Shown: in pieces, positions 54,113-61,782 of the stretch
How positions within the stretch are numbered: position 1 is the stretch's first letter
Layout: each line of letters starts with the position of its first letter
NCBI GenBank assembly: GCA_020851035.1
Contig: JADZDM010000021.1
Span: 434,001-498,000 of the forward strand
Source of the DNA: Gemmatimonadaceae bacterium
GTDB taxonomy: Bacteria; Gemmatimonadota; Gemmatimonadetes; Gemmatimonadales; Gemmatimonadaceae
DNA length: 64,000 nt
Reading direction: 5' to 3'
Program-made: the position numbers and the translations under genes
The notes under the pieces: model-generated
The model's input: only the letters and a program-made list of their open reading frames with translations
Database searches by the model: none
Told to the model about the DNA's origin: nothing

Positions 54113-54775
54113 TCACGCCGTGGCGGCGCGGCGGCGGCGGGCGGCAGCACCCAGGCCGATCAGGCCCGTGCCCATCAGCGCGTACGTCGACGGCTCAGGC
54201 ACCACGTTCGTCGGCGCCTCGGCCAGCACCAGGTCGTCCATCGTCGGCCAGGCGAACGCGCCGGTCGGCTGCACGGCGGCGACGGTCATGGTGAGGATGT
54301 TCGACGTGGTCGTGAAGCCGAGGAAGGTGCCGAGCGTCGTGTTGGTGAGCGTCTGCGTCAGGCTCCCGGCGGCGGTGTTCAGCGTGACGACGATGCTCGT
54401 GTTGGCCAGGAAGTTGCCGCTGAGGTCCGAGCCGAAGAAGTTCGCGCCGATCCCGCGGATGTTCGTGCCGAAACCGCTGAACGTGATGGTCTCGGTGGCG
54501 GTGTTGGAGGAGAGCCAGTGGTCCGCGGACGTACCGGCGCCGAAGAAGTTGTTCACCACGGCGGCGGTGTAGGTGTGCGGGCCGGCCGTGCGCGTGATCG
54601 GCGTCGGCGTGCTTCCGGTGATGGAGAGCGACTCGAAGTCGTCGGTGCCGGCGTTGCTGGTCGCGCCAAGCAGCGAGGCGAGCGACGAGTGTGTCGTGAT
54701 CTGCGCCTGGCTGACCGAGGGGAGGGCGACGAGGGCAGCGGCGGCGACAACGCGTGTCAGGGACGAAAGGCGCAT
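54113..54775 (-). CDS. PEP-CTERM sorting-domain exported protein
   Basis: 220 residues. Signal peptide MRLSSLTRVVAAAALVALPSVSQAQ, a beta-rich middle (ITFSGFGTNIRGIGANFFGSDL) and a full C-terminal sorting signal: VPEPSTYALMGTGLIGLGA followed by a hydrophobic helix and ARRRRA. PEP-CTERM proteins are cut and processed by exosortase (EpsH) and often end in exopolysaccharide or biofilm matrix. No exosortase lies in this window. It is monocistronic, with its own terminator. Confidence 0.93.
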   Translation of the reverse strand: MRLSSLTRVVAAAALVALPSVSQAQITTHSSLASLLGATSNAGTDDFESLSITGSTPTPITRTAGPHTYTAAVVNNFFGAGTSADHWLSSNTATETITFSGFGTNIRGIGANFFGSDLSGNFLANTSIVVTLNTAAGSLTQTLTNTTLGTFLGFTTTSNILTMTVAAVQPTGAFAWPTMDDLVLAEAPTNVVPEPSTYALMGTGLIGLGAAARRRRAATA

Positions 54776-55016: not shown

Positions 55017-55523
55017 TCAGGGCAGGGCGACGACCCGGAACTCCAGGCTGGCGGAGAGCTGGGCGGCACTCGGGACCACGCCGCCGGTGCGCGACGCGCG
55101 GTTGGCGGCGTGGAACGTCAGCGACAGCGGCGTGCTGGGAGACGGCAGCAGGCCGGTGGCGATCGTGGTGAACTGGGGGCCGAGTGCCAGCGGCTGCCGC
55201 TGGGACGGCGACAGCCACGCAGCCGTGAACGTGCCCGGGGCGGTCGGGCGAAGCCGCACCTGCACCTGCCAGCGCTGGTTGGCCCGCACGATCACGCCGC
55301 CGGTGTAGCAGGCTCCCGGCGTGCAGAGCAGTCCCTGCTGCGGCGTCTGCACCAGCACCGGCGCCTCGGGCGAGATCACGAACATTCCGGCCACGACGAC
55401 GCTCGCCTCGTGCGGCACCGCCGGCACGGGCACGGCGCTCCCCGCCGCCTGCGCCCCGAGGCGCGGGAGGCCCAGCGCCGACACGATGGCAACACACACC
55501 ACCCGGACGGCGAGCCCGCTCAC
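55017..55523 (-). CDS. Small exported beta-protein, last gene of the chaperone-usher-like operon
   Basis: 168 residues from GTG 55523, whose GTGA overlaps the stop of the preceding gene. Signal region VSGLAVRVVCVAIVSALGLPRLGAQAAG. The mature part is all beta in character: ASVVVAGMFVISPEAPVLVQ, QRWQVQVRLRP, PLSLTFHAANRASRTGGVV and a final strand LEFRVVAL. Two cysteines in LLCTPGACYTGG could form a disulfide. I recognise no family. Position and size suggest a minor or tip subunit of the fibre. Confidence 0.72.
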   Translation of the reverse strand: MSGLAVRVVCVAIVSALGLPRLGAQAAGSAVPVPAVPHEASVVVAGMFVISPEAPVLVQTPQQGLLCTPGACYTGGVIVRANQRWQVQVRLRPTAPGTFTAAWLSPSQRQPLALGPQFTTIATGLLPSPSTPLSLTFHAANRASRTGGVVPSAAQLSASLEFRVVALP

Positions 55524-56077
55524 AGCGCCTGCACGGTGAAGGCCATACCCAGCGAGCAGAGGCCGACGGGATCGGTGGTCCACCCCAGGCTCGACATCCG
55601 GAAGTACAGCACCTGCGACCGGCCGGCGGTGCGCGCGTTCGACGTGGCGGTGAACACCCCGGCCGGCGTGACCGACATGGGCGTCGTCCGCACCGTGGTG
55701 CTCCGGCCCCAGAGCAGGTGCGCCGCAGGCTTGGTGGCACACGGCGCGGCAAACGACGGCGTGGCGGCAGCGATGGTGGCGTTCCAGGTCGCATTCGCAC
55801 GCACCGTGACCGTGATTGCCGTGGCCACGTCGTAGGCGCCGGCCTCGTAGTCCGCGACCGTCAGCACGCCGCTGGCCGGCAGCAGGTTGAACGTGGTGGC
55901 GGACGACGTCTGCAGCAGCGTCGTCTTGCCGATGACCATCGGGACGGTGACAGTCGTGTTGCAGGTGGCCGACGCCGTGGCGGCAGTGGTGCAGCTGCCC
56001 TGCGCCTGCAGCGCGGTGCCCGCGCCGGAAGCGAGGAGCACGGCAACGACGACGGCGACGCGACGGGTCAGGCTCAT
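55520..56077 (-). CDS. Exported fibre-subunit-like beta-protein
   Basis: 185 residues from MSLTRRVAVVVAVLLASGAGTALQAQGSC. Its ATG lies in an ATGA overlap with the usher-like gene stop. Short beta-strand-forming stretches rich in Thr/Val/Ala (CNTTVTVPMVIGKTTLL, TAITVTVRANATWN) and several cysteines resemble spore-coat-U / DUF4402-like secreted subunits. It ends with LGMAFTVQAL, a strand with alternating hydrophobic residues that could serve for donor-strand exchange or chaperone docking. That is inferred from position in the operon. Confidence 0.75.
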   Translation of the reverse strand: MSLTRRVAVVVAVLLASGAGTALQAQGSCTTAATASATCNTTVTVPMVIGKTTLLQTSSATTFNLLPASGVLTVADYEAGAYDVATAITVTVRANATWNATIAAATPSFAAPCATKPAAHLLWGRSTTVRTTPMSVTPAGVFTATSNARTAGRSQVLYFRMSSLGWTTDPVGLCSLGMAFTVQAL

Positions 56078-59000
56078 TGACGCTGCCTCGTGTGGTTTTC
56101 CTGGGTCACCGCCGGCGTGCCGACCATCACCCCGTCGCCGCGCGCCGGCAAGCCGGGCGCCGGCAGGCGGCGCGTCCCGAGCTGCCGCACCCGCACGCTC
56201 CGCGTGCGCATCTCGATCTCCATCGTGGCCGGCATCTCGTCCGGCCGCACCAGCAGCACCGGACGCGCCGTCGCCGGGCGCAGCGGCTCGGCCACCGCGC
56301 TCGCGTCGATCTCGATCTCGAACCGGCCGACCGGCAGCGCATCGAAGGAGAACACCCCGTTCCCCACGGAGCGCGCCACCCAGGTGGCGCCCGACGAATC
56401 GTGCGCCGTCACGACGATCGCCTCGAGGTCGCTGCTGCGAACCTGCAGCGAATCCCCGGCGGCCAGCACGAGGCGCACCACGCGGCTGGCGAGCGGGCGG
56501 AGGGCGAAGTCCGTACTGCTGCGCGCGCGCGGACCGCTGGCGGATGGCGCGACCACACCGGCCGGCAGCGTCCGCACATCCAGCACGGCGTCGCGGCCCG
56601 ACTGGCACGAGAAGCGTCCGTCGGCATCGGTGACCACCACCATGTCACCGCACTTGAGCGCGATGCCGGCGGCCCCCCGCTCGCCACCGTCCCGCGCCCC
56701 GTTGCCGTTGGCATCGACGAACACGCGGTGCGTCTGCGTGGCAGTCATGCGCGGCATCGCGAATCCGCGGCTCAGCCGCAGCGTGTACAGCAGCCCGTTG
56801 CGCCCGCCGACGCTCGACAGCAGGTAGGGGTTGTACTCCGCCTGCAGCGAGGCCTGGCCCAGCCGCCCCGGCAGCGAGGCCGACACGCCGCCGCGCGCGG
56901 ACCAGTTGGCACCCGTGGTGGCGCCGAGCACGAGGCGCTGCACGTCGGCATTCGCCGTGACGGCCGCGGCGGCGAGGCGTGGCACGCGCAGGCCATCCAC
57001 CCGGGCGCCGACGGACTGCTGGCGCGGATAGAAGCGCGCGCCGCCACTGAACTGCTGCGAGACCCAGGTGGCCTCGAACCGGCCGCCATCCGAGGTGACA
57101 CCGAGGGCGGCGCGCAGGTCGGCACGCATGCCGGAGACGGCCGGGACGGTGGTCCCCGTGAAGTCGATCGAGCGCGTCAGCCGCGCCACGCCGCTGCGCA
57201 CGGTCAGGTAGCCTGCCCGGTACCGCGAGTCGAACATCGCCGTGGCCTGCTGCTCGCCATTCGCGAAGCGGCCCGCCTGCGACACCGACGCGAACCGGCT
57301 GCCACGCAACTCGACGCCGACCGTGCTGTTGATCCGCGGCACGTCCATCGTCGGCATCACGAACCAGCCATCACCCGCGAACCGGCCGAGGGCGGCGTTG
57401 CGATCGCGCTGGTGCCAGGCGCCGGTGGAGAGCAGCACCGTGCTCCCGATCCGCTGGGAGAACATCGCGGAGAGATCGTCGGTCGCCCGCGCGTAGGCGA
57501 GGCTGCCGCCGGGCGCATGCACCGCGCGCAGGTCGAGCAGCGAGCCGCCGACGACACGCTGGAAGGCCACGGCAGCACCGGCGCCGGCACCATCCGCGTG
57601 CGCACGATAGCCGACCTCGCTGGTGAGCTCCCCGCCGCCGATCGACGCGATGCGCGACTCGAGCGTCAGCGCGGAGAGTTGCCGCGTTCCCACCTCGTCC
57701 CGCAACGCAACGCCCTGCAGGCTCAGGTCGCCGAGACGGCCGCCGTTGCGGGCCAGGCTCAGGCCCGCCAGCCGACCCGCCCCGGCGCTGAAGATCGACT
57801 GCTGGTTGAAGCCGAACGGGCGTCCGCCAAAGGCGGCCACGGTCGTGCGTCCCACCTTCACGTCGGCGGCAGCGCCAAGCCCGTTCACGAAGTAGCCGCT
57901 GAGCTCCGAGCGCTGCACGCCGATGGCGCCGGCCATCGCACCGGCACGCGGCGAGCGGAGGGCCAGCGAGGGCGGGCCGTCGGCGACGCCGGCGCGCGCC
58001 AGGCCGTAGCCTGCGGCACCGACACCACTGCTGCTGAACGTCGCGCGGGCGCTGATCGACACCGAGTCGGCGATCGATCCGTCCACGGTCATGGCGTACC
58101 CCGTCGCCCGCGACCCGTCGGCGCCGGAGGCCGTGGCCACCGTGAGGCCGACCGACGGTCCGGGCCGCGCCTGCCCGCGCGCATCATCCACCGAGACGTG
58201 CAGGTCGCGGCTGTCGACCACCTGCGCGCCGCGGCGCAGCACCACGCGCACGCGCGCCTGTCCCGGCGCGTACTGCGACGGGATCCACACCCGCACCAGT
58301 CCACGCACCGTGGCCCCCGCCTCGATCTCGCGCTGCAGCGGCATGCCGGACACCACGCTCCGCCATCCGAGCGGCACTTCCACGTGCAGGCCCAGCGCAT
58401 CGGGGGCATTGCCACCGTTCTGCACCAGGAAACCGACGCCGGTCCAGCCGCCGCGCACGGCCGAGATGTACTCGTCGTCCAGTGCGAGTGTCGCACGCTG
58501 CTCCGCCAGCACGTTCAGTTCCACCGGCACCAGGTAGCGGCGGCCGCGCGTGTCGCGGAACTCCACCGTGGCCGCCTTGTTGCGCCCGGCGGTGGCGCTG
58601 CGGCGCACGCTGATCGTGGCGCGCACGACACTGCCGCCGGGAGCGACCATGCCACGCATCCGCCCGACCACGCGTGCCGCACCATCGGAGGCGATCCGGT
58701 AGGCCACCGCCGCGCGCCCCTCGGCGGAGTCCGCGCGCAGCGCCTCAGGCACAGGCACGTTCACGATGAGCACGCTCGCCCGCTCCGCCGGCAAACGGTA
58801 CGCCGAGAGTCGCACCAGGGCCTCGGCCGGCGCGTCGTTCGCGAAGATGGCGTCGGCCTGCTGTTCGGCGGTCGTTGCAACCGGCGCGATGGCGGTGGCG
58901 TCGGGCAGCACGGTCGGCACCGGCTGCGCGACGATGGCCGGTTCCGGTGCCACGGCCGGGCCGCTGGCGTTCTCACGGCCACGTGACGTGCGTGACGCAG

Positions 59001-59334
59001 CGCGCCGGACGCGCAGCGCCCGTGGCGCACGGGCGATCGGCAGGAGCAGCGGTGCCGCGCTCGCGACCGCACCGGCGCGCGACCGTGCCGGCGTGGACGG
59101 CGCCGTCACCAGCGGGACCGCGGCACGCGGCGCAGCGGTGGTCGTCGAGGCAGTGGTCCGCGACGCAGTGCCCGGCGCGGTGACCGGCGCGGTGGTCGTC
59201 GTCGCGGAGCTGGTCGTCGCCGCCGCACCCGTTGCCACGGGCGCCGGTAGCTCGCGCAGCCCGCGGCCGAGCGTGGCCGTGGCGGCCGCGAGCAGTGCGA
59301 GCAGCAGCCCGATGACGATGACCCAGCGTGCCAT
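56074..59334 (-). CDS. Large beta-rich outer-membrane candidate in the usher position
   Basis: 1,086 residues. N-terminal hydrophobic segment MARWVIVIGLLLALLAAATA, then a Thr/Ala/Pro-rich stretch (about 28-110) and a basic/low-complexity part. Residues about 160-400 hold two or more beta-sandwich-like domains. About 400-860 is a long series of alternating strands rich in Gly and aromatics (YFVNGLGAAADVKVGRTTV, LYTLRLSRGFAMP) typical of a beta-barrel. At about 870-912 comes an SdrB/carboxypeptidase-regulatory-like module, FVDANGNGARDGGERG...VTDADGRFSC. I see no PapC/FimD signature, but its place between chaperone and subunits fits an usher. Function inferred from context. Confidence 0.7.
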   Translation of the reverse strand: MARWVIVIGLLLALLAAATATLGRGLRELPAPVATGAAATTSSATTTTAPVTAPGTASRTTASTTTAAPRAAVPLVTAPSTPARSRAGAVASAAPLLLPIARAPRALRVRRAASRTSRGRENASGPAVAPEPAIVAQPVPTVLPDATAIAPVATTAEQQADAIFANDAPAEALVRLSAYRLPAERASVLIVNVPVPEALRADSAEGRAAVAYRIASDGAARVVGRMRGMVAPGGSVVRATISVRRSATAGRNKAATVEFRDTRGRRYLVPVELNVLAEQRATLALDDEYISAVRGGWTGVGFLVQNGGNAPDALGLHVEVPLGWRSVVSGMPLQREIEAGATVRGLVRVWIPSQYAPGQARVRVVLRRGAQVVDSRDLHVSVDDARGQARPGPSVGLTVATASGADGSRATGYAMTVDGSIADSVSISARATFSSSGVGAAGYGLARAGVADGPPSLALRSPRAGAMAGAIGVQRSELSGYFVNGLGAAADVKVGRTTVAAFGGRPFGFNQQSIFSAGAGRLAGLSLARNGGRLGDLSLQGVALRDEVGTRQLSALTLESRIASIGGGELTSEVGYRAHADGAGAGAAVAFQRVVGGSLLDLRAVHAPGGSLAYARATDDLSAMFSQRIGSTVLLSTGAWHQRDRNAALGRFAGDGWFVMPTMDVPRINSTVGVELRGSRFASVSQAGRFANGEQQATAMFDSRYRAGYLTVRSGVARLTRSIDFTGTTVPAVSGMRADLRAALGVTSDGGRFEATWVSQQFSGGARFYPRQQSVGARVDGLRVPRLAAAAVTANADVQRLVLGATTGANWSARGGVSASLPGRLGQASLQAEYNPYLLSSVGGRNGLLYTLRLSRGFAMPRMTATQTHRVFVDANGNGARDGGERGAAGIALKCGDMVVVTDADGRFSCQSGRDAVLDVRTLPAGVVAPSASGPRARSSTDFALRPLASRVVRLVLAAGDSLQVRSSDLEAIVVTAHDSSGATWVARSVGNGVFSFDALPVGRFEIEIDASAVAEPLRPATARPVLLVRPDEMPATMEIEMRTRSVRVRQLGTRRLPAPGLPARGDGVMVGTPAVTQENHTRQRQ

Positions 59335-59335
59335 G

Positions 59336-59794
59336 TCAGAGCCCGTTCCGCAGTTGGAACGTGACGACCGGGGCGTACGACGCCGGTGGTGAGGCCGTCC
59401 AGCTCAGGTTGTAGCAGAAGTAGACGCGCGCCGTGGCCGTGGCGCCGGCGGGCACCGAGAGCACGGTGGTGCCGGCAGCGGCCGTGGTGACGGTGCTCGC
59501 ACACGACGCCAGTGCCGGCGTGGCGGCCGACACCACGTACCGCAGTGCGGTGCTGCCGGTCGAGGCGGTCACGCGCATGCGCACCTGGCAGGTGCCGCGG
59601 CCGCAGACGCCGACCGTGATCGTCGCGAACCCGGCCACCACGCGGCCGGCGACGAAGTCGGCGCCGGTCGGGTTGCCGACGAGCAGCGGCGTGTACGCCA
59701 CCGCCACGGTGCTGGCCTGCGCACGCGCCTGCGGCGCTGCCATCAGCAGCGCCGGCAGGAGCACGGCAGCGGAGCGCACCAGGCGGGCGATCAT
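59336..59794 (-). CDS. Small exported cysteine-containing beta-protein of the fibre operon
   Basis: 152 residues from ATG 59794, in a TGATG overlap with the chaperone stop; a GTG one codon earlier is possible. Signal peptide MIARLVRSAAVLLPALLMAAPQARAQ. The mature part has beta strands STVAVAYTPLLVG, ATITVGVCGRGTCQVRMRVTAS and PVVTFQLRNGL, with four cysteines (VCGRGTC, ASCAST, VYFCYN). The usher-like gene starts one base after its stop. Probably a minor subunit or adaptor; no named family recognised. Confidence 0.75.
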   Translation of the reverse strand: MIARLVRSAAVLLPALLMAAPQARAQASTVAVAYTPLLVGNPTGADFVAGRVVAGFATITVGVCGRGTCQVRMRVTASTGSTALRYVVSAATPALASCASTVTTAAAGTTVLSVPAGATATARVYFCYNLSWTASPPASYAPVVTFQLRNGL

Positions 59795-60633
59795 CACGGG
59801 ATCTCGTGTTCCAGCTCACCGGCGGCCAGCTCGGCACCGCCGTAGTCCACGATCGCCACGACCGTGTAGCGGCCGGGCGGGCAGGCCGGCAGGCGCACCG
59901 TCACCACGGCCTCCGCGCCGGGCAGCGCATGCATCGCCGGCAGCGCTGCCACCGCCACCAGCGAATTGTCCTCGCGCCGGATCTCGAGGCGCCCCTGGGC
60001 CGCGACGTGCAGGGCGCCGGTGTTGCGGAAGGTGACACGGGCCTTCGGCGCCGCACCCGTGTCACCTCGTGCGGCCGCCTCGATCTGCAGGTCCGTCACC
60101 TCGCCCTCGGCCGTGAGGCCGTCAGGGGTGACGTAGACCTTCATCCCGGTGCGCAGCGTGTAGAGCAGCGTGCGCCCGCCCGCCTGCTTCACCGGCTGCT
60201 GCGCCTGGACGATGACCACGTTCCAGCACTCGGCGCGGATGCGGCCGGCGCTGGCGGAGTCGATGTCGACGCGGATCGCCTGCGACTCGCCCGGGGCGAG
60301 CGAGAGTGTGGAGGGGAAGACGCGCAGGGCGCTCGCGCAGCTTCCGGGCTGCGTGCCGGCGGCGAAGAAGCGATTGGTGCCGTCGGTGGCACGATCCCAG
60401 TCCTCGACCTTCACCACGGCCTGCGAGCGTTCACTGCCTTCGTTCCGCACCATCAGCAGGCCGCTGCGGCCGTCCGGTGCGGTGGGGCGCAGGAAGAGCT
60501 CGAGCCGGTCCACGGCGATCTGGGCGCGGGCCGGTGCGGCGACGATCACGGTCGCGAGCGCCACCAGCACGGCGGCGACACACCGGCGCGTGCGGCACCG
60601 GTGCGCATGGCGCGCGACGTGGCGTGTGGTCAT
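59794..60633 (-). CDS. PapD-like periplasmic pilus-assembly chaperone
   Basis: 279 residues from MTTRHVARHAHR, with signal region VAAVLVALATVIVAAPARAQ. Two immunoglobulin-like domains are seen. Domain 1: IAVDRLELFLRPTAPDG, SGLLMVRNEGSERSQAVVKVEDW, then FPSTLSLAPGESQAIRVDI, which matches the PapD-type P-x-x-x-L-x-P-G-E-S-Q strand. Domain 2: GEVTDLQIEAAARGD, ARVTFRNTGALHVAAQGRLEI. Such chaperones lend a strand to fibre subunits and hand them to the usher. The start overlaps the preceding pilin-like gene by four bases (ATGA). Confidence 0.85.
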   Translation of the reverse strand: MTTRHVARHAHRCRTRRCVAAVLVALATVIVAAPARAQIAVDRLELFLRPTAPDGRSGLLMVRNEGSERSQAVVKVEDWDRATDGTNRFFAAGTQPGSCASALRVFPSTLSLAPGESQAIRVDIDSASAGRIRAECWNVVIVQAQQPVKQAGGRTLLYTLRTGMKVYVTPDGLTAEGEVTDLQIEAAARGDTGAAPKARVTFRNTGALHVAAQGRLEIRREDNSLVAVAALPAMHALPGAEAVVTVRLPACPPGRYTVVAIVDYGGAELAAGELEHEIP

Positions 60634-61160
60634 GGGGCGGTGAGCGTGTAGGTGACGGCCAGCGAGTACGTGCCCGGCGTGTCCTGCACGAAGGCGTAGG
60701 TCGTGTTGTAGCCGATGGTGTGCGTAGTGCCGGCGGTGGGTGCGGCGGCGGTCACCAGCGAGGAGCCGGTGCCGCTCACGCCCTTGAGCGTGGCGAAGCC
60801 GTCGGTGCTGTAGCGCAGGGAGCTGGCAGGCTTGATGCCCGAGCCGCCGCTGAAGGTGGGGGCAGCCGCGGCCACCGTGATGGTGTGCGCGGCATTGCTC
60901 TTGACCGCCAGCGTGACGGCGGCAGGCGTGTTCACGCCGGCGGGTGCGCCGAAGCTGCTGGCGCCCGGTGCGGCGAGGGTCGTGGTCGCCGACGAGAGCA
61001 CGAGCTTCGCGACGTACGCCTTGCTGAGCGCCGCGGAGATCGAGACGGTGCACCCGGGCACACCGGTGCACGTGACCTGCGCCGCGCAGGTGGCGGTGGG
61101 CAGGACGGCCGCGAGCAGCGCGGCGAGCAGGGCGGGGAGGCGTGGGACGCGGGTGGGCAT
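60630..61160 (-). CDS. Pilin-like fibre subunit 2
   Basis: 176 residues with signal peptide MPTRVPRLPALLAALLAAVLPTATCAAQ. The mature sequence is beta-rich and small-residue-rich: VSISAALSKAYVAKLVLSSATTTL, TLAVKSNAAHTITVAA, GYNTTYAFVQDTPGTYSLAVTYTLTAP. It is clearly paralogous to the next gene upstream, sharing the YTLTAP ending and the GSGxKxASSL and DTPGxYxL segments. The last strand with alternating hydrophobics fits a chaperone- or donor-strand site. It follows an intergenic hairpin and overlaps the chaperone start by four bases. Confidence 0.82.
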   Translation of the reverse strand: MPTRVPRLPALLAALLAAVLPTATCAAQVTCTGVPGCTVSISAALSKAYVAKLVLSSATTTLAAPGASSFGAPAGVNTPAAVTLAVKSNAAHTITVAAAAPTFSGGSGIKPASSLRYSTDGFATLKGVSGTGSSLVTAAAPTAGTTHTIGYNTTYAFVQDTPGTYSLAVTYTLTAP

Positions 61161-61208
61161 CGCGGAGCCAGAGAGGAGACGGGGGGTGCGGCCGGCGCCG
61201 CCGCCCCC

Positions 61209-61237
61209 GCAGCACGCCGCATGGTGCGACGTGCTGC
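61209..61237. promoter_or_regulatory. Hairpin between the two pilin-like genes
   Basis: GCAGCACG (61209-61216) and CGTGCTGC (61230-61237) form an 8-bp stem in the 88-bp gap after subunit 1. In pap-type operons a hairpin here raises the yield of the major subunit relative to downstream genes. The same use is likely but not shown. Confidence 0.5.
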
Positions 61238-61248
61238 GGAGCGCGGAC

Positions 61249-61782
61249 TTACGGTGCGGTCAGCGTGTAGTTGATGCCCAGCGTGTAGGCACCGGGCGTG
61301 TCGATCACCCAGTCGTAGAGCGTCTTGTAGCCGATCGTGTAGACGGTCGATGCCGTCGCGGCGACACCCGTGCCGAGCACCGAGCCGGTGCCGGCGACCG
61401 GCTTGTAGATGCTGCCGTCGGTCGTGAACGTGAGCGAGCTGGCGAGCTTGTTGCCCGAGCCGCCCGTGAAGTTCGCGGCGGCCGCAGCGGCCGTGACCGT
61501 GTACTGCGAGTTCGAGCGGACCTCGAGCGTGATCGCGGCGGCGGTGTTCACGCCCCCGAGGGTGCCGAAGTCGGCGGCCACCGGCGCGGTGAGCGACGTG
61601 GCGGCGTTGGAGAGGATCAGGCGCGCGATGTAGGGCACCGTGCTGGTGACGGTGTTGGTGACCGCGCAGCCGGCGCCGATGCCGACGGCGGTGCCGTTGC
61701 AGTTCTGCGTGACCTGCGCCTGGACGGTGCCGGCGCTGGCCAGCAGTGCTGCACCTGCAGCGATGAGGCGTGCGAACTTCAT
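61249..61782 (-). CDS. Pilin-like fibre subunit 1 (likely major subunit)
   Basis: 177 residues with a strong ribosome binding site (AGGAGG, six bases before ATG). Signal peptide MKFARLIAAGAALLASAGTVQAQ. Mature part: CNGTAVGIGAGCAVTNTVTS (two cysteines), YIARLILSNAATSLTAPVAADFG, ITLEVRSNSQYTVTAAAAAANF, GYKTLYDWVIDTPGAYTLGINYTLTAP. It is a paralog of subunit 2. The best RBS and the first position in the operon point to the most abundant product. I see only loose likeness to SCPU / DUF4402 proteins, so family assignment is open. Confidence 0.84.
   Translation of the reverse strand: MKFARLIAAGAALLASAGTVQAQVTQNCNGTAVGIGAGCAVTNTVTSTVPYIARLILSNAATSLTAPVAADFGTLGGVNTAAAITLEVRSNSQYTVTAAAAAANFTGGSGNKLASSLTFTTDGSIYKPVAGTGSVLGTGVAATASTVYTIGYKTLYDWVIDTPGAYTLGINYTLTAP

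Follow-up and report, generated by a model that had tools for sequence, protein, structure and literature searches.

Does the operon at positions 55,017-61,782 of a 64,000-nucleotide stretch from a Gemmatimonadaceae bacterium (the whole stretch is hereafter the window) encode a chaperone-usher system, as an initial annotation of the DNA had proposed, even though its large protein carries no recognisable usher signature? Chaperone-usher pili comprise the classical, alternative and archaic types, all of which possess ushers of the PF00577 family. We consider it probable that the operon is a chaperone-usher-type export and assembly system which forms a branch of its own within the superfamily and in which the usher has been rebuilt, and there is a good probability that it works as a chaperone-usher system. 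This reading is based on the conservation of the operon, the homology of its chaperone, the domain order of the large protein (gene 5, here called BIG), the homology of the BIG C-terminus, and the lack of a second full-length usher in 29 of the 30 genomes that carry the operon.

Layout and conservation of the operon

The window comes from contig C21 of a genome that comprises 5.0 Mb in 34 contigs. Positions 55,017-61,782 are occupied exactly by seven minus-strand open reading frames, and this conserved seven-gene operon is real:

61249..61782, minus strand: gene 1, secreted single-domain subunit of 177 aa, probable major subunit
60630..61160, minus strand: gene 2, subunit of 176 aa, paralogue of gene 1
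59794..60633, minus strand: gene 3, PapD-like periplasmic chaperone of 279 aa
59336..59797, minus strand: gene 4, small Cys-containing subunit of 152-153 aa, between chaperone and BIG
56074..59334, minus strand: gene 5, BIG, putative usher of 1,086 aa
55520..56077, minus strand: gene 6, 185 aa, same subunit family as gene 1
55017..55523, minus strand: gene 7, 168 aa, last gene of the operon and a distant relative within the subunit family

All junctions after the first gene had been described as overlaps of 1-4 bases. This is correct for genes 2/3 (ATGA), 3/4 (GTGA or TGATG), 5/6 (ATGA) and 6/7 (GTGA), but genes 4 and 5 are separated by a 1-base gap (TGA c ATG). The spacing between genes 1 and 2 is 88 bp.

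The chaperone query matched 13 of 60 relatives, and a profile search recovered BIG, near-full-length or clearly related (at least 89 bits), in 29 of 298 sampled Gemmatimonadota genomes, distributed over four families. All of these 29 genomes also possess the chaperone, and a strong chaperone match without BIG was seen in two genomes (G143 and G201). There are 35 BIG loci, not all of them independent (L023 and L033 lie on the same contig and some others come from close relatives); in three of them the contig ends before the chaperone position. The chaperone is located one small gene upstream of BIG in every one of the 32 loci with enough upstream DNA, with a subunit-family gene detected between the two in 30 of them, and subunit genes were found upstream in 29 loci and downstream in 30. 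The conserved order is thus subunit(s), chaperone, small subunit, BIG of about 1,000 aa, and subunit(s). Because all 32 loci share this order and the chaperone is present in all 29 BIG genomes, the grouping of the genes goes beyond chance, and the proposed pairing of the large protein with a PapD-like gene is borne out in the phylum. One genome (G074) carries two complete operons of the window type in tandem (L079:4993-19000).

The operon also occurs outside the phylum. Four Deinococcus plasmids match the chaperone (L120-L123), and all four show the order subunit-chaperone-small gene-BIG, their products being recorded either as hypothetical proteins or under the generic name 'carboxypeptidase-like regulatory domain-containing'. 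Here and below, profile-profile comparisons were made without predicted secondary structure, and reversed-profile controls gave mostly 0.1-1%, with one at 12.7%. The match was 99.9% (E = 2e-33; reversed control 12.7%) for the Deinococcus BIG, 99.8% (E = 1e-29) for the chaperone and 92% (E = 8e-7) for the small gene against the subunit family. Since the same operon is found on these plasmids, it is not phylum-specific; the suggestion of an undescribed branch for this phylum therefore stands with regard to a non-PF00577 protein at the usher position, but not with regard to a single phylum. The Deinococcus loci share the four-gene core of the window, and differ from it by a longer first subunit (about 290 aa), an extra C-terminal beta domain on BIG, and the absence of an annotated subunit gene directly downstream.

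Further features lie between genes 1 and 2 and next to the operon. The 88-bp gap after gene 1 has a predicted RNA fold of -56.5 kcal/mol (z = -3.65) and contains the following element, a candidate processing or attenuation site that would fit differential (higher) expression of gene 1:

61209..61237, minus strand: RNA hairpin with a 13-bp stem

A sigma-70-like promoter match downstream of the operon was not used. The product of the gene just downstream (54,113-54,775, minus strand) ends in VPEPSTYALMGTGLIGLGAAARRRR, which resembles a PEP-CTERM sorting signal.

The chaperone and the subunits

The chaperone fold that had been recognised in gene 3 is supported by a profile match across both domains of PapD-like chaperones (98.8%, E = 7e-17; reversed control 0.1%). 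The comparison set consisted of nine archaic and three E. coli chaperones, and the match to the archaic set was 98.5%. The Pfam domain PapD_N lies just under its cut-off (22.1 vs 23 bits), and PapD-type chaperones account for 12 of 14 matches, each of them weak, in a profile search of the PDB. When the chaperone or BIG was used as a single sequence, phmmer returned nothing relevant from the PDB.

Conserved positions in the chaperone are K165, P107, C99, C136 and R219. One proline is invariant in chaperones across the superfamily (PMC4654587), and this residue corresponds to P107, present in all 26 chaperone homologues. Lys165 occupies the position of PapD Lys112, again in 26 of 26, and the position of PapD Arg8 is filled by Glu (20), Asp (3) or Ile (3). 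Archaic and alternative chaperones have Arg89 in strand F of domain 1, and the archaic reference residues (CsuC) were taken from the same source (PMC4654587); at the aligned position none of the 26 homologues has Arg, the residues being V, L, I, A, G or M. Because Lys165 is invariant, 23 of 26 homologues have an acidic residue at the Arg8 position and Arg89 is never present, the carboxylate anchor predicted from these alignments is neither the classical nor the archaic set. Cys99 and Cys136 are invariant in the 26 homologues as well and may form a disulfide. A second chaperone copy of the window type, 49% identical, is located at L017:5781-6551 (G000:C21:173,780-174,550), followed by a transposase-like frame and with no adjoining BIG or subunit gene.

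The alignment to the archaic set raises the question of whether the locus is simply an archaic (Csu-like) operon overlooked by annotation. We regard this as very improbable, since PF00577 and SCPU (spore coat U) subunits are unmatched and Arg89 is missing from all 26 chaperones; on these tested features the explanation is refuted. Moreover, a real archaic operon of the phylum, with SCPU subunits and a PF00577 usher (L089:4667-9283 in G095), looks different, showing that both kinds exist in the phylum.

The paralogy of the two subunits at the start of the operon is confirmed, with genes 1 and 2 sharing 52% identity. Profile searches place genes 1, 2, 4, 6 and 7 in one family (alignment of 62 rows, gene 1 included), which gene 7 joins at E = 2e-9 in the iterated profile. 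The profile is unlikely to have drifted, because 111 of 115 subunit-family frames lie on the same strand as a chaperone or BIG gene and within 5 kb of it. The subunits are secreted, single-domain proteins, most of them with an N-terminal Cys pair, the first cysteine following the signal peptide almost directly. Their C-terminal strand, PGxYxLxVxxTLTAP, is conserved, and gene 1 ends in it; the C-terminal strand is the part gripped by chaperones in known systems.

Some properties of the subunits weigh against a chaperone-usher role. They have no Pfam or NCBIfam match and no significant PDB profile match, and their likeness to SCPU/DUF4402 pilins is confined to the C-terminal strand (57-68%); across the profile-profile comparisons with SCPU, values for this strand were 7-68% and no full-domain match was found. 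The best PDB matches of the subunit profile, TLP-1 and TLP-2 from 16-chain assemblies (E = 0.07-1.6), were not used. The subunits could then be surface-coat or monomeric proteins that are handled by the chaperone but never assemble into donor-strand fibres, and the position of the first cysteine near the signal peptide, which leaves little space for a classical N-terminal extension, fits this as does the lack of a pilin domain. However, each operon encodes several paralogous subunits whose conserved C-terminal strand is pilin-like, and the chaperone retains its groove-strand region and the Lys112 equivalent, so that we judge the explanation to be improbable.

The large protein and its relation to ushers

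BIG was described as lacking the FimD/PapC signature and ending in an SdrB-like module after a barrel-like region, and both points hold: PF00577 (Usher) has no match in BIG at E up to 1, nor any in the window's own genome, and SdrD_B matches at the C-terminus, though under its cut-off. None of the libraries searched identified BIG as an usher. The protein can be divided as follows:

58179..58839, minus strand: two periplasmic immunoglobulin (Ig)-like domains, the second NEW3/NPCBM_assoc, BIG residues about 166-386
56731..58173, minus strand: barrel-like region of about 480 residues with about 25 predicted strands, BIG residues about 388-868
56186..56728, minus strand: two prealbumin-like domains at the C-terminus (SdrD_B, CarboxypepD_reg), counterparts of the C-terminal domains (CTDs) of ushers, BIG residues about 869-1050

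Residues 304-367 match PF10633 (NPCBM_assoc/NEW3) above the cut-off. The predicted barrel strands exceed shuffled sequences in amphipathicity (4 of 1,000 shuffles as high), and the barrel measures 460-508 aa across 28 BIG homologues. AlphaFold2 was run for BIG on a five-sequence alignment, the AlphaFold2 alignments being shallow because the contig scan yielded only four relatives. The predicted local distance difference test (pLDDT) score was 66-86 over much of the Ig-like region, and residues of about 620-780 formed a run of long strands with many blocks at 70-84. In Foldseek searches of the PDB, FimD ranked 2 and 9, among BtuB, other barrels and unrelated beta proteins; such structure matches are only suggestive because both AlphaFold2 models have low confidence. 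From these models and predictions, a large outer-membrane barrel in BIG is likely.

In the phylum, the large proteins encoded after PapD-like chaperones are of three kinds. Type A is the window kind, BIG itself. Type B matches type A over the full length (99.9%, E = 4e-32); it combines a barrel-like region with CarboxypepD_reg domains and two NEW3-like domains. Its operons (L101, L102, L103, L026, L027, L028 and L031) have chaperones related to that of the window, and their small secreted proteins, checked in L027 and L101, are not clearly like DUF4402 or the window subunits. Type C proteins are 850-960 aa long, possess a plug-like stretch, match archaic ushers over the full length (99.1%, E = 1.5e-18), and are accompanied by DUF4402 subunits, which are homologous to SCPU (98.1%). 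The two C-terminal domains of types A and C are homologous (99.3%, E = 8e-21), and in the comparison with archaic ushers the C-terminus of type C aligns to their CTD region (91%, E = 1e-6); when the BIG C-terminus is compared directly with archaic CTDs, the match is weak (36%). The DUF4402/type C operons, such as L107, have the same gene order as the window and a related chaperone (98.5%, E = 2.5e-15), as well as the homologous C-terminal domains, but unlike BIG their large proteins have the full-length archaic usher match and the plug-like stretch, with DUF4402/SCPU-related subunits.

On the side opposed to an usher role of BIG lie several results of structure and profile comparison. The AlphaFold2 model of BIG has a mean pLDDT of 56, the barrel folded alone is poorer (49), and the template modelling scores of the structure matches, normalised by query length, do not exceed about 0.25. 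The N-terminal region is unmatched to ushers (0.1%) or type C ushers (2.7%), and no classical N-terminal domain (NTD) was found. A plug domain was not detected in BIG, although the plug-only profile is a weak test because it misses the plug of archaic ushers too. Finally, barrel-only BIG profiles reach 1-43% with usher barrels, no detectable relation. Set against the five-domain definition of an usher (PMC8410936), the comparison with FimD/CsuD-like barrels and modules agrees in the CTDs (through type C) and disagrees in the classical NTD; for the barrel-like region, the count of about 25 strands and the FimD matches are only suggestive at the low model confidence and low template modelling scores, and the plug is undetected.

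These results can also be explained by replacement, in which an unrelated outer-membrane barrel combined with usher-type C-terminal domains and NEW3 took over the usher role; functionally this is a sub-case of the explanation that we prefer. The unmatched barrel-only profiles, the undetected plug and classical NTD, the NEW3 domains at the N-terminus, and C-terminal domains of an easily shuffled kind are in agreement with it. Yet extreme divergence would account equally well for a predicted number of strands close to 24 and for the weak co-linear match between the barrel and archaic ushers (E = 0.0065; up to 43%, E = 2.5e-4), and we consider replacement possible but unlikely.

BIG may instead be an outer-membrane anchor, scaffold or adhesin, with the subunits leaving by another usher or route. 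SdrD_B and NEW3 domains are frequent in surface proteins, and the window's genome has two further full-length usher loci. When the type C profile was searched against the 30 operon genomes, a full-length match was obtained solely in the window's genome, at two loci (994 and 251 bits) located at G000:C5 about 263,000-268,300 (L107, which carries DUF4402 pilins) and G000:C6:87,657-91,140. The other 29 genomes have no full-length type C usher, only C-terminal stretches that are mostly BIG itself, in a search whose quick first look a very divergent usher could escape. PF00577 is found in 2 of the 298 genomes of the phylum (one above the cut-off), neither of which has the operon. Since no other full-length usher was found in 29 of 30 operon genomes, BIG is the only candidate pore there as far as these profiles reach. 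Together with its constant location at the usher position, this makes an anchor or adhesin role rather improbable.

Comparison with known chaperone-usher systems

Archaic systems have been reported from Proteobacteria, Cyanobacteria and Deinococcus-Thermus (PMC4654587). Compared with the archaic Csu system (CsuC/CsuD; PMC4654587, PMC9452303), the window operon has a chaperone homologous over both domains, the order subunit-chaperone-usher-subunit, and single-domain subunits with a similar C-terminal strand. It has neither the PF00577 usher nor the SCPU subunits of Csu, and its chaperone lacks the Arg89 and Tyr196 anchor positions, but retains Lys112 of the classical type and has two conserved Cys residues; the gene for a small subunit also lies between chaperone and usher candidate. 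With the classical FimC-FimD and PapD-PapC pairs it shares a PapD-like chaperone with the Lys112 equivalent and a large protein with two C-terminal domains and a predicted outer-membrane location. In contrast to the type 1 and P systems, however, the Arg8 position of the chaperone is Glu or Asp in 23 of 26, NEW3/Ig domains stand in BIG where an usher has its NTD, the plug is undetected, the barrel is not alignable and a two-domain tip adhesin is not apparent. Because the tested defining features are absent, the operon, as classified from its sequence, is not a member of the classical, alternative or archaic type in the strict sense. No usher with NEW3 domains and no operon of this kind was found described in the full-text literature, a coverage that largely leaves out subscription journals.

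According to the chaperone-usher explanation, the small subunits (genes 1, 2, 4, 6 and 7) would reach the periplasm by their signal peptides, where the chaperone (gene 3) probably grips the C-terminal strand of each and its Lys165 would anchor the carboxylate. BIG would most likely act as the usher, the NEW3/Ig domains receiving the chaperone-subunit complexes and a barrel of about 24 strands serving as the pore. The prealbumin-like C-terminal domains would hold the growing fibre, as CTD1 and CTD2 do in ushers. The barrel is presumed to be closed, the subunits to be joined by donor-strand exchange, and the product to be a surface fibre.

It is conceivable, although we regard it as doubtful, that the operon, found in both Gemmatimonadota and Deinococcota, represents a chaperone-usher system of a fourth kind, in which a barrel not descended from PF00577 serves as the usher without classical plug or NTD, docking takes place at NEW3/Ig domains, and the chaperone has its own carboxylate anchor.

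If the operon does the job of a pilus system with an unrecognised usher, a branch of the superfamily has been wholly missed by current annotation. It would also put to the test which parts of an usher are essential, since BIG retains the C-terminal domains, has other domains in place of the NTD and seemingly lacks a plug. The Deinococcus that bear the operon include cultured species, which makes the question accessible to bench work.

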